Notes under the pieces: model-generated
Seen by the model: only the letters and a program-made list of their open reading frames with translations
Database searches by the model: none
Told to the model about the DNA's origin: nothing
In this document: positions 8,547-63,853 of the stretch, one piece after another
How positions within the stretch are numbered: the stretch's first letter is position 1
Layout of the letters: each line of letters begins with the position of its first letter
Position numbers and translations under genes: made by a program
Assembly (NCBI GenBank): GCA_037349105.1
Contig: JAYJMM010000086.1
Coordinates: forward strand, 682,001 to 746,000
Length of the DNA stretch: 64,000 nt
Direction: 5' to 3'
Source: Limnomonas spitsbergensis
Lineage: Eukaryota; Chlorophyta; Chlorophyceae; Chlamydomonadales

Positions 8547-11500
8547 CTATTTGCCACCTCCTGAGGTGAACTGCATCCGCCTGCCCGAGCCGCCTGAGGC
8601 AAGGTCGTCGTAGGTACTGCCCCCGCCGCCTGCAGCCCGCATGCCCCCGCTGGAACCGATATTCCCGAGCGCGTCCTTGCCGCCCTTGCGTTTGTCTGCC
8701 TTGACCTCTGACAGGAACTGATCCAACCCAAAAGGGTCCGCCTCCTCTGCCGGTTGCCGCTCAAACTCCACAGGCTTGCCTCGGGGACCGGCGCTGACCT
8801 GAAACAAGCAAACAGAGGCCGCAGCGAGTCACAGTACTTCACAAGACTACCTTATTGTGTGCGACAGGCATAGCTACGCAAACAGTCAGGGTCGGCACAA
8901 AATAAGGACTTCCTCAGCCTCATTCTTGTTGCAAGAATATTGACATGCCGGCCATGCTCCTAGGTTGTGCATCAGTAGACGACGGGAGGTGTCGGTGTGC
9001 AATACAAGCAGGTACGAAAGATTGTTTATATTGTACGCACCTTCAGCCTGCTGCAATGAACAAGCCAAAAGGGTATGAACCTTGACAGGCCTACAACCAG
9101 TGCGCCATGCAACAGGGTTTGCTGCGCAAGGCCCCCCTGGCCTTCAACTGTGATGAAGCGAGGTTTTAGCTGTAAGGCCCTTTACTAAAGTGCGAGCGCC
9201 GCTGGAGAGAGGGGATAGTGCAGAGACTGGATGTGAAGCCTGGCAGCTACACCAGCTGTCCCTCCTGCAACCATCATGCCCATCCCTCCCCCTTTTCCAA
9301 AGCAAAATCCACGGCCACAGCACCTTACCCAGGGTGAGAAACTTCATTACCAGAATTATTCAAAAGAATCTGACATAGAAAGCTACGCACCCTGCTTCCC
9401 CCTGTACTCACATCAGCTCCCTTGAAGCCCTTGTCGGGTTTGAACTTCTCCGTGCGCACGCCATCTTCAGGAACGCTATCGTCCTCTGCATTCTTGGGCC
9501 TGCATCAAAACGGCATGATGAGAAATTAACAACTGATTCAGGAACGCTATCGTCCTCTGCATTCTTGGGCCTGCATCAAAACGGCATGATGAGAAATTAA
9601 CAACTGATTCAGGAACGCTATCGTCCTCTGCATTCTTGGGCCTGCATCAAAACGGCATGATGAGGAATTAACAACTGATTCAGGAACGCTATCCTCCTCA
9701 GCATCATTGGGCCTGAGTTAACACGGCATGATGAGGAATTATCAAGTGATTCAGACACGCTGTTGTCCTCTGCGTTCTGGGGACAGCATCAACAGGGCAT
9801 ACTGAGGGGAAAACACAAAGCTCTCTTGTAGCATCGTCCTCTACAATGTTTGCCTGGATCACGCTTCAGTAGCATACTCCTTGACATTTTTCTGCCTGTA
9901 TGAACATCGCGTGATGTCACAAGTTAGCGAGTCTCAACCTAAAACAGGCCAGGGCTCCCAGGCTTCCAACAAACAAAAAAAACGGCGTGGTCCACAGTCT
10001 AATTACTAGTACCTGTACTCAATGACCAACAAACAGCACATCCACAAGCACGAGCCCAAGCCAGCTAGACGCTTCTGTGCCCCATTGTAATTCAGCTCAC
10101 TGCACGCCTCACCTGTACAGCCCGCCTGCAGCCGACCTGTCAGCGAACAACGCTTTGTCGTACACGCCATACGAGTCCTCGTTTCCGAATCCCGTGCCCA
10201 TGCCCTGGTCCTGATTGAATAGGCGCTGGTCGTACATAACTTCTCCCCCTGAGACCTTGGCCATACCCAGGGCCACCTGCAAAGGCGCAAAAAAAACACC
10301 ATCAGGGCCAAGAGGCATCTTTTCGCATCCAGCCCGAGCAGGTTGCAATGAGCCTGTCATGATAAAACAGTCAGGGCTAAGAGGAATGTTTTAGCATCCA
10401 CTCCATCCAGCCAGAGCAGGTTGCAAGGAATCTGTGCATTCACAATCGAACTTGTCAGCCAGGTCTTAGAAAGAAAGAAAGATATACACTCTGAAGCGTG
10501 GATTAAGGAAGGCACCCGTTTGGCCGTAGCACAGAGTAACCTGCCATCTAACAACATCTAACCGGCACCCGGGAATACCAGAGGTTTGCCATCCCCGATC
10601 CATTATCTCCAGAGAAGGTTACATTTCGTGGGGCCAGAGTAACCCTTCTCGACCCGCCCATGCTGACATCGTGGCTGCTGTGCCTACCCCCCGGTCCCTC
10701 TCCGGCATGGCATCCTGGAACTGGGTTCGGGGTTTTCTTGCGCAGCCCAGATCGTATGCAATACTATGCGCTGCAGCCACTGCAGTTCCAACCGAAAATT
10801 TGCAGCCTGCCAGGTCAAGCAGCTTCACGTCAACATCCCGGTCGGACATTCATACTTGTACAACCGTGAAGGTGAGAACGCAACATGCATGTACCTCGGC
10901 TGTTGTGCCTGTCCGTAACGACGCGCCTCAAAAGCACAACCCTCAACCCTCAAAAGCCACACCTTTTCGCCAATGTCCCGATCCCTGTCGCGGGTGAGCT
11001 TGCTCTTCTTGGTGCCGTGGGCATCCTTCGCCTCAAGCCGACGCTCCCGCTCCCGCTCCCGCCGCCGCTCCTCGCGGACCTGTCACACGGTGTGCAGGGG
11101 CAGGACAGCAATATATGATGGGCCAACTCAACTGCCACCAAGCATACGGCCTAACAGATGATGCTCCGAACTGGGACAGACGACTAGACCGCATGACCAA
11201 AAGCAATGGACTGTGCACGATGTGCATGGGATGCATCGCCACCCCTGTCTATCATGTTAGGGTGCTCAAGCTACAATTCAAAGACATAACCATCTACAGC
11301 TGTAAGGACCAATCTCAGCAAGGTGCCTGCAAGCTGCTGGCCGGTCAACCCGTCGCTACATTTTCAGCATATATTTTCCGCTACAAGGCCATCTTCGGCG
11401 GGCCACATCACAGCTGCGCAAAGCCCGGGCATGACCAATCCTGGGCTAGCCCATGGCTGACAGCCCAAGCAGCATGGCAGGCCATGCGTGAGATATCCGG

Positions 11501-13595: not shown

Positions 13596-14118
13596 GATTA
13601 CACCGAAAGAACGAAGGAAAGAACCCGCCGAAGCGTAGACAAAGGAGCATGGAAAGAATTGCCCATAGTAGCCCAGGAGTTCACACTTCCTTCTAGAATT
13701 CAGCTACTTTCGGCCACGGATTTGGCCGGATATTCGGGCACATCGTCTAATAGAACGCTGCAGGGCAGCGGCCTTTATGACATTGAAGTCATTTGTGTCA
13801 TCCCCATCTGTCTAGCCCTAGAACGTCGACACCAACTTCATCACGCCTTTGTCCTGTGTTTAAAGCAAATGGCCATAATTGCATATGCGCATCGTTTCTG
13901 ATCATCTGCGGCGGGACTTGAGGATTGGGTTGGTCGGTTGTGGGAACATCGTCGTAAGAGGACACATCCTCGGCACGGAATTCAGTCCAACAGCAGAATC
14001 AAGGGGCCCACGCCCCGTTGAATCTCGTCGGCATGTCCGTTTTCATCCCAGCGAATAGGCAAGCTTGTCGCCTTTGATCCCTGCCTGCGGGCGTCCTCAA
14101 GGCGGGCTCACTCCAGCC
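13596..14118. promoter_or_regulatory. Divergent promoter region between SNW and ABC1 kinase
   Basis: These 523 bp separate the ATG of the minus-strand SNW gene from the ATG of the plus-strand ABC1 kinase gene. No other supported gene lies here, so it must contain both 5' UTRs and both core promoters. No clear TATA box was seen. Confidence 0.5.
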
Positions 14119-17100
14119 ATGTGGGCTTGCCCTTCCCATGTCTTGTGTCACCGCAGGACTTTGGGCCAACTTTTCAAGCTCCACCTATCATTAAGCATCA
14201 GCAGGTTCAGCACAACGTCATGCATTGCTAAGCTTGGCAAGGCTGCCGCCCGAGGCCCAGCAGGCAGCCTTTGGACCCGTCCCATATTTCCCAGCCTCCT
14301 GGGGCTACCTGCCGAGTCAGCAGGCATAGCAAGACGATCCTTGGCATCACTAGCAGCACAGCATGCGTCAGCAGCACTTTTCACTAGCCAAGCCTCGCTA
14401 TCTGCTGTGCGGGGGCAGCTCTACCGCCAGCTAAAGTGGCACGAGCCCTCACAACAGTACTTTCAGTATGTCAATGCCTGTGTGTCTTATACTATGTCAC
14501 CGTACCTCCGGGCACTGCTGCCGTGGTTCAAATGGCAGGCCCTGAGGGACCGAGCTGGGGCATGGCTGCCCTCCTTGCCGGGCGTTGGTCAGTTCCACGT
14601 GCCGGTCCTGTCCGCGCTTAACCTGGTCGGGGCAGGACTGCCGCGGACACTCGCCTTCGTCATGTTCGAGCTGCTGCGCTCAGGGCGAGAAGCTCGGGCA
14701 CAGCCGTTTGATCGGTATGCCGCCGACGAAGCCACCGAGGCAGAAGCGCGGGCCGAGGCGCTGGCAGCTGCTGCACGGCCATGGTGGCGGACTGTCGCCG
14801 GTCAATATGCCACGACAGCATGGCACTTGACACGCCTGACGTGGTTGCTTCTCATCTTCTCGCCGGTGTTCCTGAGCGCCCCGCTGGCGCTGTCGTGGAA
14901 CCTGTACCGCCCAGAGTGGATGGAGCTGCTGCGGAAGACGCTGGAGGCCGCAGGGGCGGTGAGTCGCAGCACTCCCTTGGGGAGGAGGGGGAGGTATGCT
15001 CTGTTGCATGCGCTTGAATCATCAGCTCGTTATGTCATATTTTCTGTCAGGATGTGTTGTGGTCTGTCACTCAGGGTTGATGTGCTTGGTCTGACGCATG
15101 GTCGCATGCCGCATCTCAGCAGGTGCAGCTGGGGCAACAGGGACAAGATTACTTGCATCTCAGCATGGCATCTCAGCATGGTCATGGCAGGAAATATGCC
15201 TCCCCCCGGCAGGTCCCAGTTTTTCTTACAGCACTACGCCATCGCTCGCCCTCTTGTTTCTCCCCTCTGTCCTCCTCAATTCTTCATTGAGTGGGACCTG
15301 TGAATCGTTGCTCGTCAGTTCTTCATTACATGTGGCCGGTGATTCATTGCTGGTCAGCTCTTCATGAGATGGGACTATTGCACCATCTCCCGTCCTCTTG
15401 TTTGTCCACTGTCCCCCATGACTTCATGAGCTCTTTATTATTTTGGAGCCGTGTATCATTGCTGGTCCTCCCTGCTGATCCCCCCTTCCCCCCCCTCCCG
15501 CAGTTCTTCATCAAGTGGGGCCAGTGGGCTGCGACGCGGCATGATATCTTCCCCCCGGACATGTGCAAGGAGCTGTCCCTGCTGCAAACGCAGGTACAGG
15601 CGGGACTGGGGTGGGGGAGGGGCCAGCAGGGGCACTGAGGGGCTCATGTTGAGATGGGGAGGGCCAGAGGGGGGGAGCGACAGGGGCGTTACGGGACACA
15701 GGCTGATGTGGGGAGGGGGGAGGGGGAGGGGGAAACAGGGGCGCTAAGGGGCACACATTGAGGGAGGGAGGGGGGAGGGGGCAACAGGGGCTTGATGGTG
15801 CACTGGTTGGGGTGGGGCAGGAAGGAGGCGACAGGGGAGTGAAGTTGCACAATTAGGGGTGTGGGGAAGGGGGAGGGGGCAACAGGGGAACGAAGGTCCA
15901 CTAGGGGGCACCGACGCGGGATCATACGAGGTTGTGGTGTTGGAGTTTGCATGTTGGAAGCTGTATTGGGTGGTAGGTGTGAGAGCTCGCCGCAGTATGT
16001 CATGGATACGCGGCCAAGTGGTCCGCGCCACTCTCTCACTTGAGGCTCATCAGTACCGCTCCGCCCTGGGCCCTGTGCGGAACAGAAGTAATATTTATGG
16101 TATGTCAGATCATTGTGGGTAGGTACCGGGTAGGCACCTGTGGGCCAGTGTGGATCAATCCATGAACGGCCGACAGGCGGTGTCCCAAGCGACAGGGCAT
16201 GCTGCACCAGGATTTATCGATGGAAACTAGGAGGAAGCTGCTGTGCACTGAAAGTAACACTGGGACTGCGCAGGCACCCGCGCACCGATTCCAACACACC
16301 CGTCTGGCTGTGGAGCGCGCGTTCGGCATGAAACTGGAGGAGGTGTTTGACTCTATAGAGCTGGCGCCGGTTGCGAGTGGGAGCATTGGGCAGATCCACA
16401 GGGCCACGCTCAGCGGCAAGGGCGCAGCAATGACTGGGTGCCATGCGGGGCAGGTGGTGGCCATCAAGGTGCGAGAACTTTGTGGACACCAACCAAAGTG
16501 TGGAACGCGCAGCCGCCTTACGGGGGTACACGAAAGAAAGAAAGCTACGCCCTATAAGGGTGTGGAGGTTAAGGGAATAACGCAGCTTGGGGCCGTCGCC
16601 ACTTCTGCGCCGTTACCATCTACCCACGAGGTTACAGTGTTGTTTTGGTCATTGCACCCCTGACCGCCGTTGGCTATCCCTGGGCTGATGGGGATGGAAC
16701 TGTGACCAGCATATGGCTCGTGGGCCAAGCAACAGGGCTGGCTGCATCCAGCACCCTTGACTGTAGACCTGGGTGCAGCTCAAGTGCAGCTGAAGTGAAG
16801 CTGAAGTGTAGCTGAAATGCGCCAATGGACTGCGTCGGAAGTGTGGATTGAGGGCCCCTGTGCGTCAGCTATGTCTCACAGCATGCCGACCTGCAAACCT
16901 CTCCACCTTCCTTTTGTTTCGTTTTTTCTTTTTGCCCCTCCGCTCTCAGCCGTGCTTCCGCCTGGCCGTCCCCTTGGGACTGGTTGCCATGAGCCGCTTG
17001 TGGTATCTTGGTATGTTTTTGCTTGGGTGACTTGATCATGAATGGGATTGAAGCATGGCTCTGTGAGCCCCTGCAAAACCCTGTGTTACTCTTCCACCAT

Positions 17101-20100
17101 GTGACAACACATCTTCAGGCCCCTCAGCGAGGCTAGAATTTAGATATGACGAAGCACAGCTGTTTCCTTTGGCCGACCCTGCTTTGTTTCCTCCCGTTGC
17201 ACAGTCCAGCCGCCTGCTGAACACCAAACATTATTATTTTCAGCCGCAGCTCGCTAGCGGCATCCAACCGTGTCCTGACCACCTACCATTATTGTTTTCA
17301 GCTGCAGCTCTCTGACGCCACCCAACCGTCTCCTGACCACCTACCATTATTATTTCCAGGTGCGTCACCCAGGCACCGCTGACACCATTCTGCATGACTT
17401 TGAGACGATGCTGTGGGTGGCCAAGGTGGCCAGCGGCTCGCCGGCACTACAGGACCTGAGGCTGGAGGAGACACTCAACCAGTTTGCGTCGCCACTCAAG
17501 GAGCAGGTGTGGACTGGAAACATGAGGGGGGCTGGGCTGGCAGCAGAAGGAGGGGGGGGGGGGAGACACTCAGCCAGTTTGTGTTGTCACTCAAGGAGCA
17601 GGTGTGGACTGGAAACTTGAGGGGGCCGGGAGGAGGCAGGGTTGGCAGTGGAGTGAGAGGGCGTGGAGCCAGGGAGGAGGAGGAGGTGGAGGAGGAGGCG
17701 GAGGTAAAGGAGGGGGCAGGGAGGTCAGCTGGAGGGTAGGGAGGGGGCAGGGAGGTCAGCTGGAGGGTAGGGAGGGGGCAGGGCTGGCAGTGGAGTGAGG
17801 GGGCAGGAGGTCAGCGGAGGGCAGGGAGAAGATGGTCAGGGAAATAGGGAGGAGGGAGTGCTGGTGAGGTCGAAAGCAGTGGGAGAGACGGATGGCAGGT
17901 GGGGAGCGGTTGGGCACGAGGTCAGATAGGCAGGGGGGAGGGTTGGCAGTGTAGGGGAGTTGTGTGTGCGTGCTGATGCAGGTGGGGAGCAGGAAGGCAG
18001 GGGCTAAGGAGGGCAGGGGGGAAGGAGGGCAGGGAGGCAGGGGCAAAGGAGGCCAGGGAGGCAGGGGCAAAGGAGGGTAGGGAGGAAGGGAGGAAGGTTT
18101 GGCAGTGTAGAGGCGACGTTTGTGCGTGCTGATGCAGGTGGGGACGAGAGCCAGAGCATAGAAGGCAGGGAAGGGACAGGGACGTGGGCTGGAGGGAGGG
18201 GAGGGAGAGGGGGGGGGGGGGGGGGCAACATAGGAGTGGTCTGTGAGGATGCTGTCCTGCTCGCTTGCTCTGCCCAGTTGGAGCTGAAGATGTGGGCAGG
18301 GTCACTTCAGGATAAGGGACGCAAGTCAGGGGGCAGGGCAGGGGCGTGGAGGGGTGGATGGGGTAGCCGAGGCTCCTTTGGTGTTCGTCTGGGTAGATGG
18401 GGCAGGTGCGTAACTTTTTTATTACATTATTGGATGTTGTTGATCGCCTTGCAGATTGATCTGGCACGAGAGGCCTCCAACCTGCAGCGCTTCAACTACA
18501 ACTTCAGGCGGACGGACCATGTGCGGTTCCCGGTTCCGCTGTACCCCCTGGTGTCAGCAGACGTACTGGTGAGAGGAACAGGAGTCTGCCTGGAAAGTCT
18601 GGTAGATCCTGTAGAAATTGGTAGATCTAAAAGATCCTGTAGGGACCGGTAGATCTGGTAGGTCCTGTGGAGACCGGTAGATCTGGTCTATCCTGTAGAT
18701 ACTGGTAGATCTGTGGCCTCTGTATTCCTAGGTGTCGGCAGCATTGCTGCTGAGAGGAAAGCTCCAATTACAATTTGCCAATCATGTCCATCAATGATTG
18801 GTCGTCCCCCCTTTTTAGTTTTGCTTTCTGCGATAATACATTACCATATGGTGTTGGCAGGAAGGCAAGTGAGAGGAGAGTAAGCTTATTAAGGATGGAT
18901 TTTGATGTCAACAAGTCCTTGATGACTTCATGACATCAAGGACTGCTGGAGTAAAGACCCTTTGTGGGAGGGTGTGTCCTTTTGTGTCGCTGATTCCATT
19001 GCCATTCTTCGCAAGAAGGCTGCAGCCAGAAAGAACTTGTTGAAGCGTTGGAGGCAAGCAGCAGCCTGCCACCTAGAAGCCTATCGGTCCCCTTTTTCAT
19101 TCTTACTGTTTAGCTTTCCGTCAGGCTGGGTTTATTTCTTGCTGGTGGCACCTCTTGAGCGCGGATCAGCCCTCCCTGTCCTTTAAAAAAAAGAAAGAAA
19201 GAAAGACTCCTCCTCCGCCGAAGCAGGAAGCGTGAGGTACCGCTCGACCCACAGCAAATCTATCCTTAGTAGGATAGCCTGCTCACGCCATTCTGTCCTC
19301 TGAACAACAGCACTCTTTTGTATTCACTGTGATTCCGGAACACGTATGCAACATTCCAGCCTGCAGCCTGCCGTTCAGTGAAGGTTTGTCCCACTTGGCC
19401 CAGTAGTTGCTGCCCAGCAGCCCCGCAAAGGTGGCCCCACGCGCGCTAAAATAAGCACAGGATGACGCAGAGCAAATATCTGTCCACTTCCATTACATGG
19501 CCCAGTGGTTGCCACTTGCTGCCCAGCAGCCCCCCCCTCTAAGTGGCACGATGCGCTCTTGACACAGCACCATGGTGGTGTGCAGATTAAATTGTTTGTG
19601 TTAAGGGTTGAGGTTATACCCTGAACCTACTATAATAAACCCTGATGTGTAGGTTGCATTGTTTGGGTTGAGATTTTAGCTTATACCCTGAACCTACGGT
19701 AACAAACCCTGATGTGCAGGTTGCATTGTTTGGGTTGAGGTTTTAGCTTATACCCTGAACCTACGGTAACAAACCCTGATGTGCAGGTTGCATTGTTTGG
19801 GTTGAGGTTTTAGGTTACACCTTGAACCCACTGTGATCAATACTGATGTGTAGGTTGAATCGTTTGAGGAGGGGGACCACATCACGAGCTACATTGAGTC
19901 AGTCAATAACCCGCACAACCACCGGCTGTCACAGCTGGGCTCAGGCCTCATGCTGCAGGTGGGACCAGGGATGGGGGAGGGCAGGGGGCTGGGCTCAGGC
20001 CTTATGATGCAGGTGGGACCAGGGATGGGGGAGGGCAGGGGGCTGGGCTCAGGCCTCATGCTGCAGGTGGGACCAGGGATGGGGGAGGGCAGGGGGCTGG

Positions 20101-23100
20101 GCTCAGGCCTCATGCTGCAGGTGGGACCAGGGATGGGGGAGGGCTGGGGGCTGGGCTCAGGCCTCATGCTGCAGGTGGGACCAGGGATGGGGGAGGGCAG
20201 GGGGCTGGGCTCGGGCCTTATACTGCAGGTGGGACCAGGGATGGGGGAGGGCAGGGGGCTGGGCTCGGGCTTCATGCTGCAGGTGGGACCAGGGATGGGG
20301 GAGGGCAGGGGGCTGGGCTCAGGCCTCATGCTGCAGGTGGGACCAGGGATGGGGGAGGGCAGGGGGCTGGGCTCGGGCCTTATACTGCAGGTGGGACCAG
20401 GGATGGGGGAGGGCAGGGGCCTGGACTCGGGCTCTATGCTGCAGGTGGGACCAGGGATGGGGGAGGGCAGGGGGCTGGGCTCAGGCCTCATGCTGCAGGT
20501 GGGACCAGGGATGGGGGAGGGCTGGGGGCTGGGCTCAGGCCTCATGCTGCAGGTGGGACCAGGGATGGGGGAGGGCAGGGGGCTGGGCTCGGGCCTTATA
20601 CTGCAGGTGGGACCAGGGATGGGGGAGGGCAGGGGGCTGGGCTCGGGCTTCATGCTGCAGGTGGGACCAGGGATGGGGGAGGGCAGGGGGCTGGGCTCAG
20701 GCCTCATGCTGAAGGTGGGACCAGGGATGGGGGAGGGCAGGGGGCTGGGCTCAAGCCTCATGCTGCAGGTGGGACCAGGGATGGGGGAGGGCAGGGGCTA
20801 TGGGGGGGTCCAAGGCTTTTCTACAATTGTTCTATGATCGGGGAAACTATGAATGGGGAGGCTTTAGCTGTGGCCGTTGCCGGACGTCATCCGAGCAGGT
20901 TTATGACTTCACGGCTATACGTCAGGTTCGGAATTTAGGGGAGGAGGGGGCACATTCCATCTCGTCTGCCCCTCTCGCAGTTTCCCTGCCCCCCCCCCCC
21001 CCTCCGGCAGTCTCTCAGTACTCTCGCAGGCTCCCGCCCCCCTCCGAAGCCTCCCCAGCTAGATATGCCTTGCTCATTGCTTGCAGGCAATGCTAACGTT
21101 ATTAGACCCTTCAGGCCGAAAACCTCAACCCTTGCTCTATGCTTGTCCCATGATGTTTCTGGTTTAAAGTTTACCATGGTTCAGTTTAAACCCTTAACCC
21201 TGGCTCTTGCTCGCAGATGATGCTCGTGGACAACTTGATCCACTCCGATCTGCACCCAGGGAACATCCTGGTCCGCCTCAACCCCCCCAAGGGTCTCATT
21301 GGGTTCATGTACAAGATGATGGGCAGGGTCAAGGACAGCACACAGGCAAGTTAAGGGGCACAGGCAAGAGGGCACACGCAAGCAAAGGGGCACAGGCAAA
21401 CGCAGGCCCTGCCTAGGGCTACTGGCTAACAGAAACTCGAAAGGGGCACCGGCAAGAGGGCGCATTCAAGGTCAGGCCCAGCATGTGGTAACTGGCTAAC
21501 AAGAGTCTGAAGGCAAAACGCCACATGCAAGCTCAGGCCCTGCCTGTGGCTACTGACATGCAAAAGTTCTGAGGCCAAAAGGCACGGGCATTTGTTGTCC
21601 CTGCCTGTGTCTTCTGCCAAGCAGTGAGGTCGAAGGCAGTATGGCACATGCAAACGCAATCCTCACCAGCGGCTACTGGCAAACTAAGGGGTCCACAGTA
21701 GAAAGGCACGAGCGAGCGTTGCTCCTGCATGTCCTGCGACAAACAAGGTGTGCTGGATTGACTGAATTGCATGCTTCGTTTTCTTTTGCTACCCCAGGTC
21801 AGCAGCAGCACTCGCGCCCGCCTGCACAACATGCAGCAGCGCTGGCTGCAGCCTCAGATTGTGTTGCTGGATGTGGGCATGGCCACAGAGCTTGCCGGGA
21901 ATGACCAGGAGAACATGATCGGGCTCTTCCGCTCCTTTGCCAAGATGGATGGCAGGACGTGTGGGGAATGGACGCTGCGCTTCTCAGGTGGGGAGGGGGT
22001 GGGCAGGTGGGGACCGATGCAGGTCTAATGGGGAAGGGGAGCGTGGGTGATTGGGGAGAACAGCTGGTGAGGGGGAGGGCAGCTTTGGAGAGGGGGAGGG
22101 CAGGTGTGGGGAGGGGGGTGGCAGGTCGGGAGGGGGTTGCAGGTGGGGAAGGTGAGGCAGGTGGGGTGGGGGAGACAGGTGGGGAGGGGGAGGCAGGTGG
22201 GAGGGGGAGGACAGCTGGGGAGGGGGGGGGGGGTAGCTGAGGAGAGGGGAGGGAGCTGGGGAGGGGGAGGAAGCTGGGGAGAGGGAAGGGAGCTGGGGAG
22301 GGGGAGCACAGCTGGGGAGTGGATGTTAGGCTTCTTAGGTGAAGGGGGCAGGGGTAGGGCAGGTTGGGAAGGGGAGCACATGTGGTGAGGGGGAGCGCAG
22401 CTGGGGAGTGATGCAGGGGGGGGGGGGTCAGTGTTGCACATTTCATATTTTGGTATTAATTGAAATTGGGGGTTGTGTAAGGGGGGAAGGAGAAGCAGTG
22501 GAGGGTGGGTAAAGAACTTCGGTGATTCCTGTGATTGAGCCAGCACTGCATTTACACATGGTTTGCAGGCTCTGAGCAGGCCTGCCCCGACCCCGAGGCC
22601 TTCAAGATCGGCATGCAATGCGCGTTCGACGACATCCGCATCGCCGGTGAGCTGGACGGAAGCGGCCTCAAGAACAGCGCAGAGGCCCTGGCCAACGTGC
22701 TGGAGCTCATCAGGCAGTACAAGGTGGGATCAGGCAGTACAGGTTGGGTCTAGCGGTGTGCAATGTGCGATGAGGTGGGATTGTGCAGTACAAGGTGCAA
22801 AAAGGTGGGATTGGGCAGTACAAGGTGCAACAAGGTGGGATTGGGCAGTAACAGGGGGACGAGTGAGGCATACTGTGCCTCATAGTTTATGCTCTGAGGC
22901 GGGATGCTTACCTGACTACCCTCGCGGGCCATGCGGGATGTACCGCCCATGATGCAGACTGTCCCGCTGCATGTTATGTACAGCAGCCAAGTGTCTGCTT
23001 GGGTACTGAATTGATTGCATGCATGGCCGTAACGTGAATATACATGATGCGACACCGTGTCAAGATTTTCGAGGCAGCCGGCCCTTACGCATGGTTTTGT

Positions 23101-26531: not shown

Positions 26532-29500
26532 ATGTCCATCGCAGCACATCAAGCTCAGCATGTCTCTCAGCGCAAAATATCCGGGAGGAGCCTGACGGGA
26601 TCGAATATCTTAGTGCCTCGCGTCACCCCTCGAGCCTTAGCTGCGCGTCTGCCCAGTGCTCAAGGCACATCGAAAGAGCGATTCGTCTCCCCGTTCATCG
26701 CTAGATCGACCAAGGATCAAGGTGGGTTGGTGATGACCAGTTGGCCACGTAGACAGCGTGCCACTTTCCGCTGAATCCCGCACACCCTCCCTGGTCGACC
26801 ACTCACTCGTCCCTCAGCTTGCACCCCTCCCTCCCTGAACTCGGCGAAGGCGAACCAGCATCTAGCCCCCAAGGTCAGGCCGATTCCGATTCCGATGTCT
26901 GGGTCCCCGTATGCCTACCCGAAGAGCTACCCAAGGGTAAGTTCCGACAGGCCCGCACTGCAAATTAACGGCACGTATGTTCTGTTTCTCCCATTACTCT
27001 TATGCCGCCATGCAGGCCACCCCATGCAGAACAATAAACACAATATAATAACTTCCTTTGCTAATAAAACTGGAACAGAAATTAGAAATCCAAATTAACA
27101 GGACAACCTACACACATGCATGAGGAGGGAGGTTGAGGTTGATGGGCAGCAAGTGCTGCTTCTGTCATGGTACTGCAGTCAGATGCTGCCACCTGATGAC
27201 CCCACGCATGCGATCACCTGGCCCTCGTCGACATCCCTCTTGCAGGCACACGGAAGGAAGTTGAGGTGGATGGGCGGCAGGTGCTGCTGTTCTGGTACCG
27301 CAACCAGATCTATGCCATCGAGGGGCGTGCCCCATCCGAGGGCGCGTACAGTGAGGGCTTCATATCGGCCAAGTTCACACAGGTGACGTTTTTGGAGTTT
27401 TTTCAGTCCATCAGAGCATCACATTTGATGCAACGGACGTGTGCCCGTAAACCGGTACAGGCACTTGATACACTAGGACAAAAAGAAAAAAATGTTGACC
27501 CCCCTGGGCAAGCAACTAGCACACAACCACATCAGTGGCGTGAGAATCAATCCCATAGTGCAAAAGATAAGCCCCAGCCATAAAACATGACGTGGGTGCA
27601 AAAGAGTTGCGCGGATGTGGCGAATGGGTACAACATAACATGGCAGTCCATGGCAGTACGGGACACAGGGGTACAAGCCTGCGTTTAGCCACGACATGAC
27701 ATGGCAGTACACATTAGTACCTGGCACAGGTGCCTGGGCGGGCGCATGTGTACGACATTGGATGGCAATACATGACGGTACATCGCACATGTGTACGGGA
27801 GGGCTTATATGTACAACATGGCATGGCAGTACATGGCAGTACATGACACGGGCGCGCAAGCGGGCACAACATAACTTGGCAGTATAGGATAGTAAATGAC
27901 ACAGGTGCGTGTGCAGGCGCATGTGCACAACATTACATGGCAGTACATGACGGTACATGAGACAGTTGCGCCAGCTGTTGCATGGGTACAACAGTACATG
28001 ACAGGACATGACACAGGTGCACAAAGTGGGGCTCACTTCTGCATCGGCCATCCCGCTGTACACGCCAGTCGACCAAAACCTCGCCTGTCTTTTCCTCGTT
28101 CCCCAACCGCGCAGGACTTCTGTATTGAATGTCCCGCAACGGGTACGCTCTTCTCCCTCAAGGACGGCTCCATCCAGTCCTGGTACCCCAAGAACCCTGT
28201 GTTACGCGCCCTGACACCGCAGGATACCTGCAGGAAGATGGAGGTGCGTGATGCCGGAATTGAAGCCAAAGCACCTCTGACTGTCAGAATGAAATCCCAA
28301 ACCCTTAGCCCACCCTTAGCCCGCTGCTGCTGCTGCTGCACACCAGTATACCTGCAGGAAGATGGAGGTGCATGATGCCGGAATGAAAGCCAAAGCACCT
28401 TCGACTGTCAGAATGAAACTTGGAACCCTTCAGACTGCCGGAATGAAATCCCAAACCCCTAGCCCAGTGCTGCGTGCCCTGGCACTCCAGGACACCGGCA
28501 GGAGGATGGAGGTGCGTGCAGCAAGAAAAAAGTCTGGAACATTTCAGGCTGCCGGAACGGAAGCGGAAGACCTTAGCCCAGTAGCCTATTGCTTCGCGCT
28601 CTGACACCGCAGGACACCTGCAGAAAGATGGCATGCAGGAACTCAGTCCTGCACACCAACAAGCCCTAGAGGCCTAGACCTTACACCCTAGGCTCCAACG
28701 GCCTTACCTACAAGAATGACTCATCGTTCTCTGATCGGAAAATCGAAGAAGTAGCTAGCGTGTAAACTGTTAAACTTGGCATGGTGTGTGTATTGAAAAC
28801 CCTGCGCTACGCACCCTCTCTTTCCCGGAACAAATTCGAGGAGCAGGGAGGTGAGGGCGAGCATGAAAATCTTGACCTGGTGTCGTGTGAAATCTAAACA
28901 TGTTTGAGCATTTAAACTGTTATCAATTGTCCTGATCCACATTTTTAACCCAGTGTTGAGCCATTGTTAAGGGTGCTGCGCGCCCTCACACCTCCGGGCA
29001 CCTGTAGAAAAATGGAGGTGAGGGCGAGCATGAACCCCTGACCTGGTTTGCATCTTCAACCCATTTTTGGTTGGCCTAGTTTATATTTCAGCCCAGTTTT
29101 AAGGGTTTTGTGCGCATAACTCCTTCAGGTGCCCCCAGCACCTTGGCGCACTTGCAGGAATATGGATGTCAGGGTTTGCAATTAAGCATGAAACCCTGAC
29201 CTAGTAATTGGTATGTTTACAATGCTTACCTGGTTATATCCAGTGCTGCATGTCGTCACAGGTTAGAACACTTGTAGGAACACGGATGGGAGGGCCTGCG
29301 TGAAAGCCTGATCTAGGACCCTCCGAGATTGGGCAATTTAACCGTACCTGTCAAGGCGCAAGTTGTCCTGACAAGGTCTGGAATGTGGTCTTCCCTCGGT
29401 GGTCTTCTTGCCCGACATACCGTATCAGTGTTTATTTGAGGGTGCTTCAGTCACAGCTTTATATCGGCCGAAGGCCGGCGTGGCTTGGTGCAGCTGGCCC

Positions 29501-30799
29501 TGTTGCCTGTGCCACTGGTCGTAGGTCGGTCAAGGTTGCGGGTCAGCACTAGCTCAGTGGTGGCCGCCCCTTAACGATGGTCTGGCACGCACTGAGGTAA
29601 ACCCTGGGGTACGACCTGTTTGCCCTTCACATCACTCTGATTATTCAAGGGTGCTCCCGCTGCAATTCAGCTCCCGGAACAAACACTGGATGCGTCGTGC
29701 TTTTTATATTTTGCATTGATGATATGTTGCAACTGAAGCAAACTACCGGAAAAGAGAAACTGCCCAGTCAAGCAGCAGGGCTTGCTGCCTCAGGCCCCCT
29801 CGGCTGTAGACCCTGATGATGTAGCACAGGTGCTGCACACTAAACTAAGCAGTGCTCCTGTAGTCATGTGCTCCCCCTCCAGATGACTGTTGATTTCAGT
29901 GTGCTTCAGCTACAATCCAGCTGCCATAATTAACTCGCATGCGTGCCCGGTAGATCTACCCGGTGAAGCTGACTCAGCAGGCTATCTGTGTCGACATTAC
30001 GAAGTCCTCTGCTACCGCCAAGCGAGCGGATCGGGGCGGGGCCGGCACCTCCTTGGAGAACAACAATGTGTTCACCGTGCAGGTGCGCGGCGGGCGGGGG
30101 GGGGGAGGGGAGGCAACATCGATATCTTTCGTCGCAACTGAGGGGCAGGACCTCCTTGGCGATCCACAACGTGTTTACGATGCTGGTGGGGTTAAGGGTT
30201 TACGGTGAGGGCTGAGGGCTTATTTTCAGGTCCAGGTTACAATGTTCATGGTGCAGGTGAGGACTTAGGTTCAGGCTCAGTGTGTAGGGTTCAGTGCTCA
30301 TGGTGCAGGTGAGGGTTTTAAGTCAGGTTTAGGTGTAAGCGAGGGCTTAGGGTCAGGTTCAGGTGTAAGTGTTCACGGTGTATGCGAGGGCTTAGGGTCA
30401 GGTTCAGGCTTTAGGGTTAAGTGCAAATTATGCATGTGGGGTGACCGCAAAAATTGTCAATTCAAGTGTGAACGGTGCAGATGAGGGACTGTCCTTCGGG
30501 TTGAGGGCTTGAGGGGCCGTCCTTCGGATTGAGGGTCAGGGTTTGGTGTGCACAGGGCCGGGCCGGTGACGGCACACAGACTCCCCTGTCATCAGCATGC
30601 CCTGCTCCTCATGCCCTCCGCTCCCATCTCGTAGCCCAACGTCTATTTCGAGGGCATGAACCCCGTGGAAGAGCAGGCCAGCGTCTTCCAGGATGGGCCC
30701 AAGGAGTTCAACCCTGCGATCCTGGCTACAACGTTCGTGGGCGCCGTGTCGTTTGTGGGTGTGAGCATCGCGGTCTTCCTGTACGTGACGGGGAAGTGA
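26532..30799 (+). CDS. PSB33: PSB33/TEF5, plastid Rieske-fold photosystem II protein, 6 exons
   Basis: Exons are 26532-26721, 26874-26936, 27246-27382, 28115-28243, 29954-30082 and 30635-30799 (270 residues). The exon 1/2 junction is the least certain (acceptor CCCCCAAG). The first 60 residues are Ser/Arg/Ala-rich like a chloroplast transit peptide. A Rieske-like fold spans about 70-175, with SDVWVPVCLPEELPKG, VLLFWYRNQIYAIE and the PSB33 hallmarks EGAYSEGFI and WYPKNPVLRALTP. The usual cluster ligands are missing: no CxH follows YAIE, and the second motif is CIECPATG (133-140) without His, as in plant PSB33, so no 2Fe-2S centre is expected. One membrane span lies at about 244-266, near the C-terminus. 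In plants and Chlamydomonas the family is a thylakoid protein that stabilises PSII-LHCII. A TGTAA lies at 30979-30983. Confidence 0.88.
27112..27190 (+). pseudogene. Partial exon 3 copy of PSB33
   Basis: gaggttgaggttgatgggca, then caagtgctgctt...tggtactgcagtcagatg, mirrors real exon 3 (gttgaggtggatgggcggca, caggtgctgctgttctggtaccgcaaccagatc) about 130 bp upstream of it. It lacks the downstream half and a clean acceptor, so it is an intronic exon relic. Confidence 0.8.
27403..27600. repeat. Dispersed repeat of about 200 bp, copy 1
   Basis: Shares ordered blocks with 47668-47872: cagagcatc, then aaaccggtacaggcac, gacccccctggg, cccatagtg, and ccagccat followed by aacatgacgtgggt. No coding sequence was seen. 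It sits in PSB33 intron 3 right after exon 3. Confidence 0.7.
27625..28025. repeat. Tandem repeat of about 65 bp built on catggcagtacatgac
   Basis: Six irregular units with tacaacat...catggcagtacatgacacaggtg, rich in short palindrome-like gtac strings. They fill the rest of PSB33 intron 3. Confidence 0.75.
28205..29300 (+). repeat. Donor-side array at PSB33 exon 4, about 8 diverged copies
   Basis: The exon 4 end ctgacaccgcaggatacctg, then caggaagatggag|gtgcgtg, recurs at about 28343, 28478, 28598, 28978, 29133 and 29249, with a weaker match near 28804. Spacing is about 110-160 bp, and most copies retain atggag|gtg. Divergence grows with distance from the exon. Confidence 0.85.
29426..29604. 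mobile_element. MITE-like element, family A, best-preserved copy
   Basis: The left terminus agtgtttatttgagggtgct and the reverse complement of the right terminus (agggtttacctcagtgcgtg) match at about three quarters of positions. The interior has cttggtgcagctggccctgt, ggtcggtcaaggttgcggg and gtggccgcc. Length is about 178 bp. Confidence 0.5.
29638..29856. mobile_element. MITE-like element, family A (composite)
   Basis: Left gattattcaagggtgctccc, interior agcagcagggcttgctgcct, right gcacactaaactaagcagtg. A further left-end fragment (tttcagtgtgcttcagctac) begins near 29895, just before PSB33 exon 5. Confidence 0.35.
30060..30385 (+). repeat. Donor-side repeat at PSB33 exon 5
   Basis: The exon end aacaatgtgttcaccgtgcag|gtgcg is followed by diverged copies: cacaacgtgtttacgatgct (30165), tacaatgttcatggtgcagg (30239), cagtgctcatggtgcaggtg (30291) and gtgttcacggtgtatgcgag (30368). 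Confidence 0.72.
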
Positions 30800-31455
30800 G
30801 GCAGGAGGCTTGTCTGTGGTGAGGAGAGGACGGTGGCGCGGTCTTCCTGTACGTGACGGGGAAGTGAGGCAGGAGGCTTGTGTGTGGTGAGGAGAGGACG
30901 GAGGCGCGGTCTTCCTGTACGTGACGGGGAAGTGGGGAAGGAGGCAGGAGGCTCCAGTGTGATGAGGAGAGGCCAACGTGTAAGAAACAGCAGGCAGGAG
31001 GCTTGTGTGTGGTGAGGATAGGACAGGAAGGGCGCGGTCATCATGTACGTTACAGGGAAATGAGGCAAGAGTCAGGAGGCTTGTGTGTGGTGAGGATAGG
31101 ACAGGGAGGGCGCGGTCATCATGTACGTTACAGGGAAGTGGGGCAAGAGTCAGGAGGCTTGTGTGTGGTGAGGAGAGGACAGGGAGGGCGCGGTCATCAT
31201 GTGCGTTACAGGGAAGTGGGGCAAGAGTGCGGAGGCTTGTGTGTGGTGAGGAGAGGATAGGGAGGGCGCGGTCATCATGTACGTTACAGGGAAGTGGGGC
31301 AAGAGGGAGGAGGCTTGTGTGTGGTGAGGAGAGGACAGGGAGGGCGCGGTCATCATGTACGTTACAGGGAAGTGGGGCAAGAGGGAGGAGGCTTGTGTGT
31401 GGTGAGGAGAGGACAGGGAGGGCGCGGTCATCATGTACGTTACAGGGAATATTAG
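30768..31455 (+). repeat. Array copying the PSB33 C-terminus and stop codon, about 9 copies
   Basis: Units of 66-79 bp contain gcggtcttcctgtacgtgac then ggggaagtgaggcaggaggc. The first is the real gene end (AVFLYVTGK plus TGA). Later units change to gcggtcatcatgtacgttac but keep the aag-tga or equivalent. Units start at about 30768, 30837, 30905, 31035, 31111, 31189, 31268, 31345 and 31423. Confidence 0.9.
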
Positions 31456-32366: not shown

Positions 32367-32371
32367 TTACA
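32367..32371 (-). terminator. TGTAA polyadenylation motif for DHAR
   Basis: TTACA on the plus strand, that is TGTAA on the coding strand, 68 nt after the DHAR stop codon. This is the position expected for a chlorophyte polyadenylation signal. Confidence 0.5.
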
Positions 32372-32438
32372 GTAATTTTTGTGTCAAACGTGCATATGAT
32401 GCGGCTCCCGCAGTACACGTCCTGCCAGGCTGATGGAT

Positions 32439-44150: not shown

Positions 44151-44159
44151 GACCATATC

Positions 44160-50487: not shown

Positions 50488-50742
50488 ATGGCTGCTTACC
50501 TACCATTCGCTGAATCACTGAACATGTTGACATCAGCATATACCGCTGTGAAAGCTATTTCCTTACCTCGGAGGAGGAGGGCTGCGTCATCACTAACCAC
50601 CAGTATATTTTCCTGTGGGCGTAGGAAGACGGATCCCGAAGCGTGCGAGCTGATAGACGGTATCATTGCCAAGCTCCTGGCTTTTGCTCATGTGGACCTG
50701 CTGGAGGACAACCAGCTGGACCCCCCCCTGCCCGCCCCCTGA
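50488..50742 (+). CDS. Hypothetical 84-residue open frame
   Basis: Opens with ATG in a TATAGGTGAACACATC context and ends in TGA. The protein has a Lys/Arg-rich middle (SLPRRRRAASSL) and an acidic, helix-prone end (ACELIDGIIAKLLAFAHVDL). No family was recognised. It may be the first exon of a longer gene or a chance frame. Confidence 0.25.
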   Translation: MAAYLPFAESLNMLTSAYTAVKAISLPRRRRAASSLTTSIFSCGRRKTDPEACELIDGIIAKLLAFAHVDLLEDNQLDPPLPAP

Positions 50743-51915: not shown

Positions 51916-51929
51916 CTGACAAGAAAAAA

Positions 51930-59500: not shown

Positions 59501-62500
59501 CAGTATTGATAGGGAGGGGGTCTCAGTATTGATAGGGAGGGGGTCTCAGTAATGATAGGGAGGGGGTCTCAGTATTGATAGGGAGGGGGTCGCGGTATTG
59601 ATAGGGAGGGGGTCTCAGTATTGATAGGGAGGGGGTCTCAGTATTGATAGGGAGGGGGTCTCAGTATTGATAGGGAGGGGGTCTCAGTATTGATAGGGAG
59701 GGGGTCTCGGTATTGATAGGGAGGGGGTCTCAGTATTGATAGGGAGGGGGTCTCAGTATTGATAGGGAGGGGGTCTCAGTATTGATAGGGAGGGGGTCTC
59801 AGTATTGATAGGGAGGGGGTCTCAGTATTGATAGGGAGGGGGTCTCAGTATTGATAGGGAGGGGGTCTCAGTAATGATAGGGAGGGGGTCGCGGTATCAA
59901 TAGGGAGGGGGTCTCAGTATTGATAGGGAGGGGGTCTCAGTATTGATAGGGAGGGGGTCTCAGTATTGATAGGGAGGGGGTCTCAGTATTGATAGGGAGG
60001 GGGTCTCAGCATTGATAGGGAGGGGGTCTCAGTATTGATAGGGAGGGGGTCTCAGTATTGATAGGGAGGGGGTCTCAGTATTGATAGGGAGGGGGTGCAT
60101 TCTAGAACCAACCAATGAGGTTTGATGCCTGCGCGGGTTGGGGCACTGACATTGTGTTTTATGTACATGTGCTGTAGGGACACAGATCTCCAACGTGGCC
60201 TGGTCACTGGCCTGCCTAGGCATACAAGACCGACAGCTCGCCGCCAGCCTGGTGGAGGTAGGGAGGTACATGATGCATTCCTGCTGAAGCATGGAACCTG
60301 GAATCCGAATTATGATGTCTGAAACGAGGAGTCTGGGTTTTGAAATCTCGGATTTGAAACCTGGAATCTGGATTCTGGAATTTGGAACCTGGAATCTACA
60401 ATTTGGAACCTGAATTATGGAATGTAAAACCCGGAACATAAAACTGGATACTTGTACCTGAATCCTGAAATATTGAATGTGCTGCTGCATATTGGGTCTT
60501 GACTTCCCTCTGATGCTGCAGCAGCATAGCACCTCTGACCCCCCTGTCGCCGTACAAGGATTTTTCTGTTCCCTAAAGCTATCCAACGAGGATTGATTTT
60601 TAAATCAACGACCTGAGGTTATTGTACCGGTACTTCTCTGGCGCTCTGAGGGAACAAGCACGAAATTGCCTGCAGCATGCAGGTCACTCAGCCTGGCCTC
60701 TATCCGCCATTTGCTCAGGATTTCGAATTCGTGACTGATCGCTGCCCAGCTATTATGCGCACCTCGCACCTGCAGGCGCTGTACATTGTGTTTTATTTGA
60801 GTTTGCCCATATAAGTATGGAAGCACAATCCAGCTGAGCCGATGCCAAGTCTTGCTGTACCGTACTGCCTTGCTGGTACAATCTGTCTTGACCTGTGCCG
60901 TATCGTGCTGACTTGCCCATGATGCTGCCTCGCGTATGCATTCGATGCTACTCTTCAGGTACATCGCAGCCTGCGGTCGAAGGGCCTGGTGCAGCAAGCC
61001 TTGCTGCTAGGTCCACCAGCTGCAGGCCGGTCAAAGTCTTTTCTCCTTGGCCCAGGGATGCCCAGCCCAGCCCAGCGGCATGTAAAAAGTGGAATGGTGT
61101 GCAATCAAATAAAGTTGTGTGCAGCATCATGGTAAAGCACGCTCGATAATTCGCTTCTTAGCATTTTGCGACCACCATTCCTGTGTTTTAGACCGATCGC
61201 ACGTGCAGGCGCTGTACGGCCAGTCAAAACCCAGAACTCCGATATAAACCCTTAACCCTGAACCTTAAACCCTGCAAGCGCTATTTGGTCAGCTGAAACC
61301 CTAGTCTCTCGGCCCTGTATGCGCAGGATGGCCAGCTCACACCTTTGGTTCAGCTGGCTACACTGCAGCATTCTGCTTAAAACCTTCACACGGATTAGAG
61401 TAACGCAGTAGAATGAGCCCCTGCTCGCTCAGTGCTGTCATTGACGTATAGAGAAGTACATTATCAAGATGCGAGACACTTCCCATTACATATTCATATG
61501 CATGTACAGCAATGTGCATATGTACAGCCTGAAACTCAGCGGCACCCAGGGATGCTACATACAAACGCCTGCAGGGCGTGTGTGCAGGGTGCTTAACCCT
61601 TAAGAGTCAAGGGTTTAAGCTGGTTGTACTCACGGTAACGGCGTGGATGTGGCTGCGGCCCAGGCTGTGCTGTTTCCTTAACTCTCACGCCCCCCCCGGG
61701 GTGTAGCTTTCTTTCTTTCTTAGCTGGTTGTACAATACCTGCAGGCTTGAGGCCTGATGGCGTTGTACGACCAGCTGTAACTATAAACCCTAAATCCGTA
61801 TGGCCCTGTATGGCCAGCTGTAACCCTGAACCCTTGACCCTGCTGGTGCTGTAAATTCATCTGTAACCCTACAAATCTGTTACCGCAGTGCGGCCAGCTG
61901 TTACACTGAACCCTGAACCCTGATGGCCCTGTACGGCCAGCTGTAACCCTGAACCCTTAACCTGTATGGCCCTGTAGGCGCTGTACGGCCAGCTGTAACC
62001 CTCAACCCTCAACCCGTATGGCCCTGTAGGCTCTGTACGACCAGCTGTAACCCTGAACCCTAAACCCGTATGGCCCTGTAGGCGCTGTACGGCCAGCTGT
62101 AACCCTGAACCCTAAACCCGTATGGCCCTGTAGGCGCTGTACGGCCAGCTGCTACCCTGAACCCTAAACCCGTATGGCCCTGTAGGCGCTGTACGGCCAG
62201 CTGTTACCCTGAACCCTAAACCCGTATGGCCCTGTAGGCGCTGTACGGCCAGCTGTTAACCTGAACCCTAAACCCGTATGGCCCTGTAGGCGCTGTACGG
62301 CCAGCTGTAACCCTGAACCCTAAACCCGTATGGCCCTGTAGGCGCTGTACGGCCAGCTGTTACCCTGAACCCTAAACCCGTATGGCCCTGTAGGCGCTGT
62401 ACGGCCAGCTGTTAACCTGAACCCTAAACCCGTATGGCCCTGTAGGCGCTGTACGGCCAGCTGTTACACTGAACCCTAAACCCGTATGGCCCTGTAGGCG

Positions 62501-63853
62501 CTGTACGGCCAGCTGTTACCCTGAATCCTAAACCCGTATGGCCCTGTAGGCGCTGTACGGCCAGCTGTAACCCTGAACCCTAACCCGTATGGCCCTGTAG
62601 GCGCTGTACGGCCAGCTGTAACCCTGAACCCTAAACCCGTATGGCCCTGTAGGCGCTGTACGGCCAGCTGTAACCCTGAATCTTAAACCCGTATGGCCCT
62701 GTAGGCGCTGTACGGCCAGCTGTTACACTGAATCCTAAACCCTTATGGCCCTGTAGGCGCTGTACGGCCAGCTGTAACCCTGAACCCTAAACCCGTATGG
62801 CCCTGTAGGCGCTGTACGGCCAGCTGTTACCCTGAATCCTAAACCCGTATGGCCCTGTAGGCGCTGTACGGCCAGCTGTAACCCTGAACCCTAAACCCGT
62901 ATGGCCCTGTAGGCGCTGTACGGCCAGCTGTAACCCTGAACCCTAACCCGTATGGCCCTGTAGGCGCTGTACGGCCAGCTGTAACCCTGAACCCTAAACC
63001 CGTATGGCCCTGTAGGCGCTGTACGGCCAGCTGTTACCCTGAACCCTAAACCCGTATGGCCCTGTAGGCGCTGTACAGCCAGCTGTAACCCTGAACCCTA
63101 AACCCGTATGGCCCTGTAGGCGCTGTACGGCCAGCTGTTACCCTGAATCCTTAACCCGTATGGCCCTGTAGGCGCTGTACGGCCAGCTGTAACCCTAAAC
63201 CCTAAACCCGTATGGCCCTGTAGGCGCTGTACGGCCAGCTGTTACCCTGAACCCTTAACCCGTATGGCCCTGTAGGCGCTGTACGGCCAGCTGTAACCCT
63301 GAACCCTAAACCCGTATGGCCCTGTAGGCGCTGTACGGCCAGCTGTTACCCTGAACCCTGAATCCTAAACCCGTATGGCCCTGTAGGCGCTGTACGGCCA
63401 GCTGTTACCCTGAACCCTAAACCCGTATGGCCCTGTAAGCCCTGTACGGCCAGCTGTTACCCTGAACCCTAAACCCGTATGGCCCTGTAGGCCCTGTATG
63501 GCCAGCTGTTACCCTGAACCCTAAACCCGTATGGCCATGTAGGCGCTGTACGGCCAGCTGAACGGCCTGCCTTGCCAGGACCTGACCAACGCTATGTGGG
63601 CTCTGGCCGTGATGGGGGTATACGAACATGAGGTGAGGGTTCAGGGTTCAGGGTTTAAGGAACACGCGGTGAGGGTTCATGAAAGTGGGGGGAGAGTGAA
63701 GGAGGATGTTCCTAAAGCTGGCCGTCCCTTAGCCGGACTTAAGCCTCCCCACCCCTTTCTTCTCAACAGGCCTACGCTTTGATGACACGGTTTGTGTGGG
63801 GAACTTCCCTGCTCTCAGATACTGATAACCTCTTCCTTCTCCGCATGCTTTGA
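53560..63853 (+). CDS. Helical-repeat protein of RAP/FASTK/OPR style, partial model
   Basis: Exons are 53560-53899, 60178-60257, 63543-63632 and 63770-63853; phases agree at every junction (1, 0, 0). Exon 1 has an Arg/Ser-rich start (MSCRTYPRSSSTQRG), like an organelle presequence, then ALVEAVKGLIMARLRGMTG. Exons 2 and 3 join to give two 37-residue repeats with the cores ISNVAWSLACLG and LTNAMWALAVMG, the NxxWALAxxG pattern typical of the alpha-helical repeats of RAP/FASTK and OPR-like organellar RNA-binding proteins. Exon 4 adds AYALMTR and ends at an in-frame TGA at 63851, which may be the true end, an unrecognised donor upstream, or an intron read-through. The start could lie further upstream. 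Introns 1 and 2 are 6.3 and 3.3 kb and are largely satellite. A role in chloroplast or mitochondrial RNA processing is inferred from the family only. Confidence 0.62.
53885..54600 (+). repeat. Donor-side array at RAP-like exon 1
   Basis: The exon 1 end cgggatgacgg|gtgcgtggg recurs in diverged units of about 60-75 bp: gaggtgacagatgtgtcggc (53973), gagtggacagctgtgcgggc (54055), gggatgacaggagcgtgggt (54136) and caagatgacggttgtgtggg (54498), most followed by ctct.tag..aagggcagggg. The first copies also share gaggagcatgctaggtagca. Confidence 0.78.
54601..55812. other. Unique part of RAP-like intron 1
   Basis: No exon or RNA gene was recognised. Open frames here are short and lack splice support. 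Confidence 0.35.
55813..60096. repeat. 23-bp satellite (about 186 copies) with higher-order structure
   Basis: The unit is ggtctcagtattgatagggag plus gg, head to tail. Variant units (tatagataa, taataatag, gtcgcggtat, cagcattg) recur in the same order. The tatagata variant lies at 56491, 57549, 58400 and 59251, so distances are 1058, 851 and 851 bp, that is 46, 37 and 37 units. The array is inside RAP-like intron 1 and ends 81 bp before exon 2. Each unit contains a TCTCAG string resembling a weak acceptor. Confidence 0.95.
60765..63560 (+). repeat. 52-bp acceptor-side array at RAP-like exon 3, about 30 copies
   Basis: The unit reads cgtatggccctgtag|gcgct then gtacggccagctgttaccct then gaaccctaaacc. 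The last copy is the real 3' splice site and the first 18 coding bases (ALYGQL) of exon 3. Diverged copies begin near 60769 (cctgcag|gcgctgtac) and 61203 (gtgcag|gcgctgtacggccag); the regular array runs from about 61960. Each unit also carries a plant-telomere-like CCCTAAACC. Confidence 0.93.
60950..61122. mobile_element. MITE-like element, family A
   Basis: Interior cctggtgcagcaagccttgc and caggccggtcaaagtctttt match the family; right end tgtgcaatcaaataaagttg. It interrupts the older part of the exon 3 acceptor array. Confidence 0.45.

Follow-up and report, generated by a model that had tools for sequence, protein, structure and literature searches.

Copies of exon ends adjacent to splice sites in the green alga Limnomonas spitsbergensis and their likeness to the mirages of amphioxus

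Introduction

Minisatellites located at exon-intron boundaries, and named mirages, reportedly go back to studies of the Adh and troponin genes. Later papers describe mirages in amphioxus, where regular splicing is undisturbed and where intron gain from such repeats has been proposed (PMC3087553, PMC3902484). Structures of similar build occur in the green alga Limnomonas spitsbergensis and are the subject of this work; the starting point is a stretch of 64,000 nucleotides (contig JAYJMM010000086.1 of assembly GCA_037349105.1, C86:682001-746000; hereafter, the window) within a genome of 260 Mb and 124 contigs. A sequence-only reading of the window had proposed that its minisatellites are seeded on exon edges, copying real splice sites and extending away from the exon; the gene labels used below (SNW, ABC1, PSB33, DHAR, HUP and RAP-like) are those of that reading.

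The algal repeats are like mirages in that their units span donor or acceptor boundaries, occur at both the 5' and the 3' boundary, come in several tandem copies and keep AG or GT in many units, although not in all; unit lengths are similar too, those of amphioxus being 10-160 bp. They are unlike in that the host is a chordate there and a green alga here, that copies were counted here on 188 splice sites and described there for single genes, and that the work on amphioxus drew on reverse-transcription polymerase chain reaction and on haplotypes, the algal arrays being known from the sequence of one haplotype. Judged by these features, the finding is a further example of mirages, located in a green alga. 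The sequence-only reading knew of no description of introns growing from splice sites, which was wrong, given what the passages on amphioxus mirages report (PMC3087553, PMC3902484); regarding algae, no description of copied exon ends was found in the open-licence literature searched.

Three other systems are close. The Rogers model, by which new introns arise when exon segments containing AGGT are duplicated in tandem (a potato RdRp case is given in PMC4974935), has in common with the present case that exon and splice-site sequence is copied in tandem; it differs in that the arrays described here stand in introns that, in the paralogs compared, occupy common positions, with no new intron shown. 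All resolved intron positions were common to the paralogs in the three pairs compared (9/9, 6/6 and 6/6, searched near shared peptide breaks), a comparison that covers the period after the splits, in loci outside the window. Half of the internal tandem repeats of human duplicated genes lie in coding exons, and those located at exon-intron boundaries can affect splicing and form new introns (PMC2812944); the algal arrays are minisatellites at such boundaries too, and differ in that the exon frame is unchanged. Finally, a 2013 survey of Chlamydomonas and Volvox found tandem repeats, with units of 1-50 bp, concentrated near intron-exon junctions (PMC3887541). Green algae, intronic repeats and the vicinity of some of them to junctions are shared with the present case; the introns sampled here differ in having no enrichment at their ends, and copied exon ends are undescribed in the passages available of that survey.

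Sample and gene models

The main sample consisted of 94 introns, that is, 188 splice sites, from five window genes and 13 other loci. The latter were picked by protein family alone, mitochondrial carriers and CCT chaperonins, and contributed 65 introns; three of the ten carrier loci (L021, L028 and L030) were excluded because the exons between anchors were unresolved, a single intron of L029 was used, and one intron of L035 was dropped for poor splice scores, which brought the total from 95 to 94. Neither the RAP-like gene nor PSB33 intron 1 is part of this set, and DHAR enters it with its introns up to exon 5. All splice edges were set by homology, reading frame and GT/GC-AG rules, with the exception of the RAP-like exon and the last exon of DHAR, which were assigned by eye.

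Regarding the window genes, the SNW model has eight exons and a single open frame of 601 aa; its protein aligns over nearly the full length, exon 7 included, with the solved chain 8xi2_R (E 1.9e-209), its best solved relative and presumably a Chlamydomonas protein. The exons of ABC1, HUP, PSB33 and DHAR splice together in frame, with Pfam support for HUP (Sugar_tr, 1.3e-117), PSB33 (Rieske-like, 2e-20) and DHAR (GST N-terminal, 3.7e-15), and with a weak match to a solved structure for ABC1 (2.8e-13). Outside the window, no large gaps interrupt the alignment between the CCT-eta model of L034 and a solved CCT-eta chain.

Exon-end copies are frequent

When only the best diagonal of each edge was kept, the adjoining intron contained a copy of the exon end at 37 of the 188 splice sites; shuffled introns gave 0.6. 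Of the 37 sites, 12 belong to the window (out of 58) and 25 to the other loci (out of 130). A gapped comparison of terminal exon 60-mers, restricted to introns no shorter than 200 nt and exons no shorter than 60 nt, gave a similar picture: at an alignment score of at least 40, 27 of 160 exon ends were copied (9/81 donors and 18/79 acceptors; 21/110 outside the window), vs none of 162 unrelated exon pieces (1/162 at z >=5). Exon-end copies are therefore real, and the two gene families chosen outside the window both have them; in the sampled genes, roughly every fifth or sixth splice site has an adjacent exon-end copy. The statement of the sequence-only reading that the units copy real splice sites and lie on the intron side holds, and it extends beyond the window.

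The splice dinucleotide is kept in 24 of the 37 best copies (GT in 11/14, AG in 13/23), so that decoy sites abound, as that reading had foreseen. By side, copies were found at 14 of 94 donors and 23 of 94 acceptors; the surplus on the acceptor side came mainly from outside the window (18 vs 7).

An artefact, due to wrong exons, chance similarity or mis-assembly, would have to be considered in view of exon edges set by homology and GT/GC-AG rules, and it is very hard to credit: the unrelated pieces and the shuffled introns gave almost nothing, solved homologues can be aligned along both the SNW and the CCT-eta model, the paralogs share the intron positions given above, and diverged copies cannot be the product of assembly collapse.

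Proposed origin of the copies

On balance, the exon-end copies probably stem, in the main, from tandem duplications that are frequent in this repeat-rich algal genome and are tolerated at exon ends. Duplications of ~12-200 nt would arise anywhere along the genome, and those within a coding exon would normally be removed by selection; a duplication across an exon end, instead, would be tolerated because the exon-side copy retains the whole splice site (or the stop codon), and the extra copies become part of the intron (or of the 3' flank). The intron would extend away from the exon because growth into the exon is impossible, and the exon half of the units would stay recognisable longer, the real exon being under selection, possibly with exchange between exon and copies in addition. 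Both the tolerance through use of the exon-side splice site and the exchange are deduced from sequence. The array at the end of PSB33 fits the tolerance rule: there, a coding end that is not a splice site, the stop codon, acts alike.

An additional rule, suggested by 12 hand-listed arrays, would have required a minimum of 32 nt of intron in acceptor units; it does not hold, as two of all 17 acceptor clusters leave only 16 and 19 nt. The failure of this rule, the gradient seen in only two of seven arrays and the pooled P values reported below weigh a little against the tolerance explanation and, by a still smaller step, in favour of seeding.

Placement of arrays relative to exon edges

The alternative put forward by the sequence-only reading is true seeding, in which hot spots for the start of tandem duplications lie at exon ends or in exon sequence as such, making introns grow from their splice sites. 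It was evaluated on arrays from Tandem Repeats Finder (TRF), an edge array being one with at least 8 nt of exon, and the expectation being that of uniform placement of the duplicated unit. Edge arrays numbered 5/24 in the window (expected 2.40, P 0.076), 4/28 at the other loci (expected 4.45, P 0.72) and 9/52 in the pool (expected 6.85, P 0.21); among arrays with at least 85% match, the other loci had 4/18 (expected 3.72). Array centres were uniform along introns (Kolmogorov-Smirnov P 0.56), and TRF coverage was lower at the two intron ends (0.155 and 0.163) than in the middle of the intron (0.266). The coverage profile by distance from the edge had no rise toward the splice site; this profile cannot separate seeding from uniform births, because an edge-seeded array also fills the interior, and array-level tests were used for this reason. 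Likewise, units of 12-79 nt outside the window were at an edge in 2/17 cases (expected 2.5), vs 10/18 in the window (expected 2.5), and sensitive self-comparison clusters with at least 88% identity, taken over all loci, had no significant excess (4/11, expected 2.77). Systematic seeding at exon edges is not supported for TRF-detected minisatellites, and beyond the window neither TRF arrays nor short units lend it support.

A number of observations weigh against uniform placement and in favour of some form of seeding. The expected values come from a simple formula, in which the unit and the length before expansion are guesses made from the array as it now stands. In the window, TRF arrays with at least 85% match exceeded expectation (4/12, expected 1.11, P 0.014), and the pool came close to significance (8/30, expected 4.83, P 0.059). 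TRF also overlooks diverged exon-derived arrays, which a sensitive self-comparison detects: its clusters were at an edge in 14/25 cases in the window (expected 3.6, P 5e-7; nine of the 14 in ABC1), in 5/12 after removal of ABC1 (expected 2.09, P 0.038), in 16/46 at the other loci (expected 10.0, P 0.013) and in 30/71 overall (expected 13.6, P 4e-7). Outside the window, duplications of 80-200 nt were at an edge in 14/27 cases (expected 7.0), and 23 of these 27, from six loci, bear exon sequence, vs a fraction of 0.40-0.43 in a simulation of exon constraint. Finally, intron 60-mers outside TRF arrays were copied in 58/475 cases (12%), below the 17% of exon ends.

This last rate has to be read next to that of all intron 60-mers, arrays included (32% of 645), so that the exon-end rate (27/160) falls between the two. 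As for the sensitive clusters, shuffled introns gave 7.3 of them, with 0.33 at an edge; by identity, and over all loci, edge clusters were 10/14 in the 80-88% class (expected 3.63) and 16/46 below 80% (expected 7.17). A modest preference for edges or exons may exist, because edge clusters are in excess in the window, also without ABC1, and among the 80-200 nt duplications. Seeding in its full form appears doubtful: the sensitive clusters and the outward decay of two arrays, described below, speak for it; the TRF arrays and short units outside the window, the most similar clusters, the low coverage of intron ends and the lack of a gradient in the two longest edge arrays speak against it.

Introns are about as rich in repeats as most of the random stretches compared. 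TRF arrays cover 20.6% of intron bases, and their mean coverage in six of eight random 10-kb stretches was 20% (40% including two wholly-satellite stretches). These two, L015 and L016, are neighbours (C75:500001-520000), each of them a single array from end to end; in L015, the stretch that was examined, this is a 28-bp satellite. The window has very long arrays as well, at 1-5829 and 55816-60096 (39 bp x150 and 23 bp x186, respectively). Telomere-like AACCCT/AGGGTT hexamers were 2-5 times more frequent than in dinucleotide shuffles in five of 11 stretches (window 6000-55800, L009, L013, L017 and L020) and occur within some minisatellite units; no link with exon-end copies is drawn.

Exon-end copies in the window

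Most of the sites listed by the sequence-only reading were borne out, starting from SNW. Exon 7 of SNW/SKIP (9412..9499, minus strand; in the eight-exon model aligned to 8xi2_R) adjoins a 71-bp array with 4.8 copies at its acceptor (9466..9807, minus), the unit of which comprises the end of intron 6, the acceptor and the first 34 nt of the exon.

ABC1 is on the plus strand, and its exon 6 (19854..19958) has an array on either side: a 67-bp array with the acceptor and the first 13-21 nt of the exon (19579..19866), and a 54-bp array of 16 copies with the donor and the final 25 nt (19934..20797). A 95-bp duplication contains the exon 4 donor and the final 43-49 nt of that exon (17464..17639), and a 30-bp array contains the end of exon 9 (GGCAGTACAAG) and its donor (22773..22850). 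Some sites were absent from the earlier list: on the acceptor side of exon 2 (exon 15504-15593), a degenerate 39-bp array (15272..15375) holds copies of the exon start, and weak copies occur at the donors of exons 5 and 8. Two sites that had been listed are weak or unconfirmed: the 58-bp array that ends at the exon 4 acceptor (17206..17363) has an exonic part of only 4-11 nt, and at the exon 7 donor the self-comparison clusters include 11 exonic nt, with no match scoring above 30 in the targeted copy search.

In PSB33, also on the plus strand, exon 4 (28115..28243) has copies of its donor end in five units that decay over roughly 28.2-29.3 kb, exon 5 has one donor-end copy with 79% identity (30142..30188), and exon 6 ends in an array (30769..31449) that includes the final 31 coding nt and the stop codon and extends into the 3' flank; at least eight matches to this stop region were found, the eighth being equal to the shuffle maximum. 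In HUP, a 60-bp array (41054..41196, minus) includes the acceptor of exon 5 and the start of the exon, which begins at 41063. The RAP-like gene has a 52-bp array with 31.5 copies (61918..63560, plus), containing the acceptor and the first 18 nt of an exon placed at 63543-63632; its start was taken as 63541 in the unit-gradient and copy-search analyses, and 29 units entered the former. Exon 1 of this gene was not located, so that the donor copies proposed for it are unconfirmed.

For two listed sites, exon sequence is copied, and the aligned part stops short of the exon edge. The 5' part of PSB33 exon 3 (exon 27246-27382) has an upstream copy at 27124..27191 (plus, 77%), with the acceptor outside the aligned stretch; the last exon of DHAR (32442-32570) has a downstream copy of its inner part at 32396..32433 (minus, 84% over 38 nt), together with two marginal upstream matches scoring 38 and 35 vs at most 34 in shuffles. 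In DHAR exon 4 (exon 35115-35250), the copy of the 3' part does extend into the donor, at 34369..34443 (minus, 68% over 75 nt).

This DHAR exon 4 copy, extended to 34369-34453, still encodes a similar peptide, ATREALAAVLRGLDAYLASPGK (TREALAAVLRGLDAYLASPGK with one more upstream residue), with GT at its end, and is a possible duplicate exon. The unit of the ABC1 exon 6 array being 54 bp, the region 19854-20837 is open in frame for 327 codons, and retention of intron 6 would give an 18-residue repeat. Both cases, together with the dinucleotides kept in most best copies, could point to functional decoys or alternative exons, retained to regulate splicing or to add coding units. As a general explanation this is highly improbable, as copies decay and differ between the CCT-eta paralogs, and many unit lengths are not divisible by three (e.g. 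71, 95, 67 and 52).

Divergence of the copies and comparison of paralogs

According to the sequence-only reading, divergence often rises with distance from the exon. Seven arrays were evaluated, with the exon-side unit as the reference, whose value of 1.00 is consequently uninformative; a clear fall of identity away from the exon occurred in two, SNW exon 7 and PSB33 exon 4 (from 1.00 to 0.66 over five units). Beyond its first step, the ABC1 exon 6 acceptor array stayed level (0.81, 0.79, 0.79); no divergence gradient was present in the two longest edge arrays, with 29 and 16 units.

Along the same diagonal, the exon part of the copies was better kept than the intron part (identity 0.747 vs 0.573, n 37, Wilcoxon P 0.0003), a difference that selection on the real exon would predict. 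In a first simulation of persistence, edge arrays rose from ~0.23 to at most 0.28 and exon-bearing ones reached at most 0.30; a second one, with longer units and indels, brought exon-bearing arrays to the 0.40-0.43 mentioned above. Both are lower than the 23/27 observed, and therefore exon constraint alone is insufficient; it explains part of the excess, the remainder of which may come from exon-copy exchange or from a genuine bias towards exons.

Exchange is the core of another explanation, in which the exon acts as a master copy: duplication is unbiased, the intronic copies are rewritten from the selected exon by gene conversion or re-duplication, and exon-bearing repeats outlive those made of intron only. 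It would complement tolerated duplication, without excluding it, and we regard it as a possibility of some weight, still short of likely. The relevant data come from the CCT-eta paralogs L033 and L034, whose introns align poorly, and whose best-matching stretches of introns 2, 3 and 7 contain exon copies; in intron 5 the best match holds no exon copy, which speaks against this explanation, and in introns 1, 6, 8 and 9 it is weak. In both paralogs the copy of exon 8 lies at a lag of 108, and the two copies have in common an acceptor variant that is absent from the true acceptors, which argues for a single origin before the paralog split; yet these copies share base differences with their own exon (3/3 sites in L033 and 2/3 in L034). 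Four shared copies gave 44 informative comparisons, and in 31 the match was with the own exon (P 0.0096, the null value being one half). This result is heterogeneous, as the L033 exon 6 copy matched the other paralog at 3/3 sites and the L033 exon 3 upstream copy had 4 own vs 5 other; moreover, the diagnostic sites are not independent and belong to one gene pair, and independent duplication after the split would give the same sign. Copy number also differs between the paralogs of one pair. Exon-copy exchange, or repeated re-duplication, is likely in part to judge from these alignments, and is not proven.

L033 and L034 are one of four old paralog pairs, together with L022/L023, L025/L026 and L027/L029, having the same intron positions where both are resolved and exons ~78-94% alike; their introns are mostly unalignable, with the exception of the first intron in L022/L023 and in L027/L029 (inside alignments of 70-75%), a pattern that resembles the aftermath of an old large-scale duplication. 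L029, a carrier paralog on C104, has in-frame stops in several exon-like stretches and is probably a pseudogene.

Conclusions

Selection on an exon keeps the repeats anchored to it visible, and this can give them the appearance of being seeded; the present data carry this warning for similar cases. A bolder suggestion, offered as a tentative one, is that the exons of this alga serve as selected master copies from which the copies of their ends are repeatedly rewritten, so that much of the long-surviving intron sequence would be exon fossil and roughly one splice site in five would stand beside a near-functional decoy; if true, this would be a standing supply for alternative splicing and for the gain of introns or exons. 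If boundary duplications mark one in five to six splice sites of a genome of the plant lineage, mirages would be a general by-product of frequent tandem duplication rather than a peculiarity of amphioxus; this makes testable how the spliceosome chooses the exon-side site among near-identical neighbours, to what extent duplicated splice sites contribute to the gain of introns, and in what way exon-end copies mislead gene finders and alignments.

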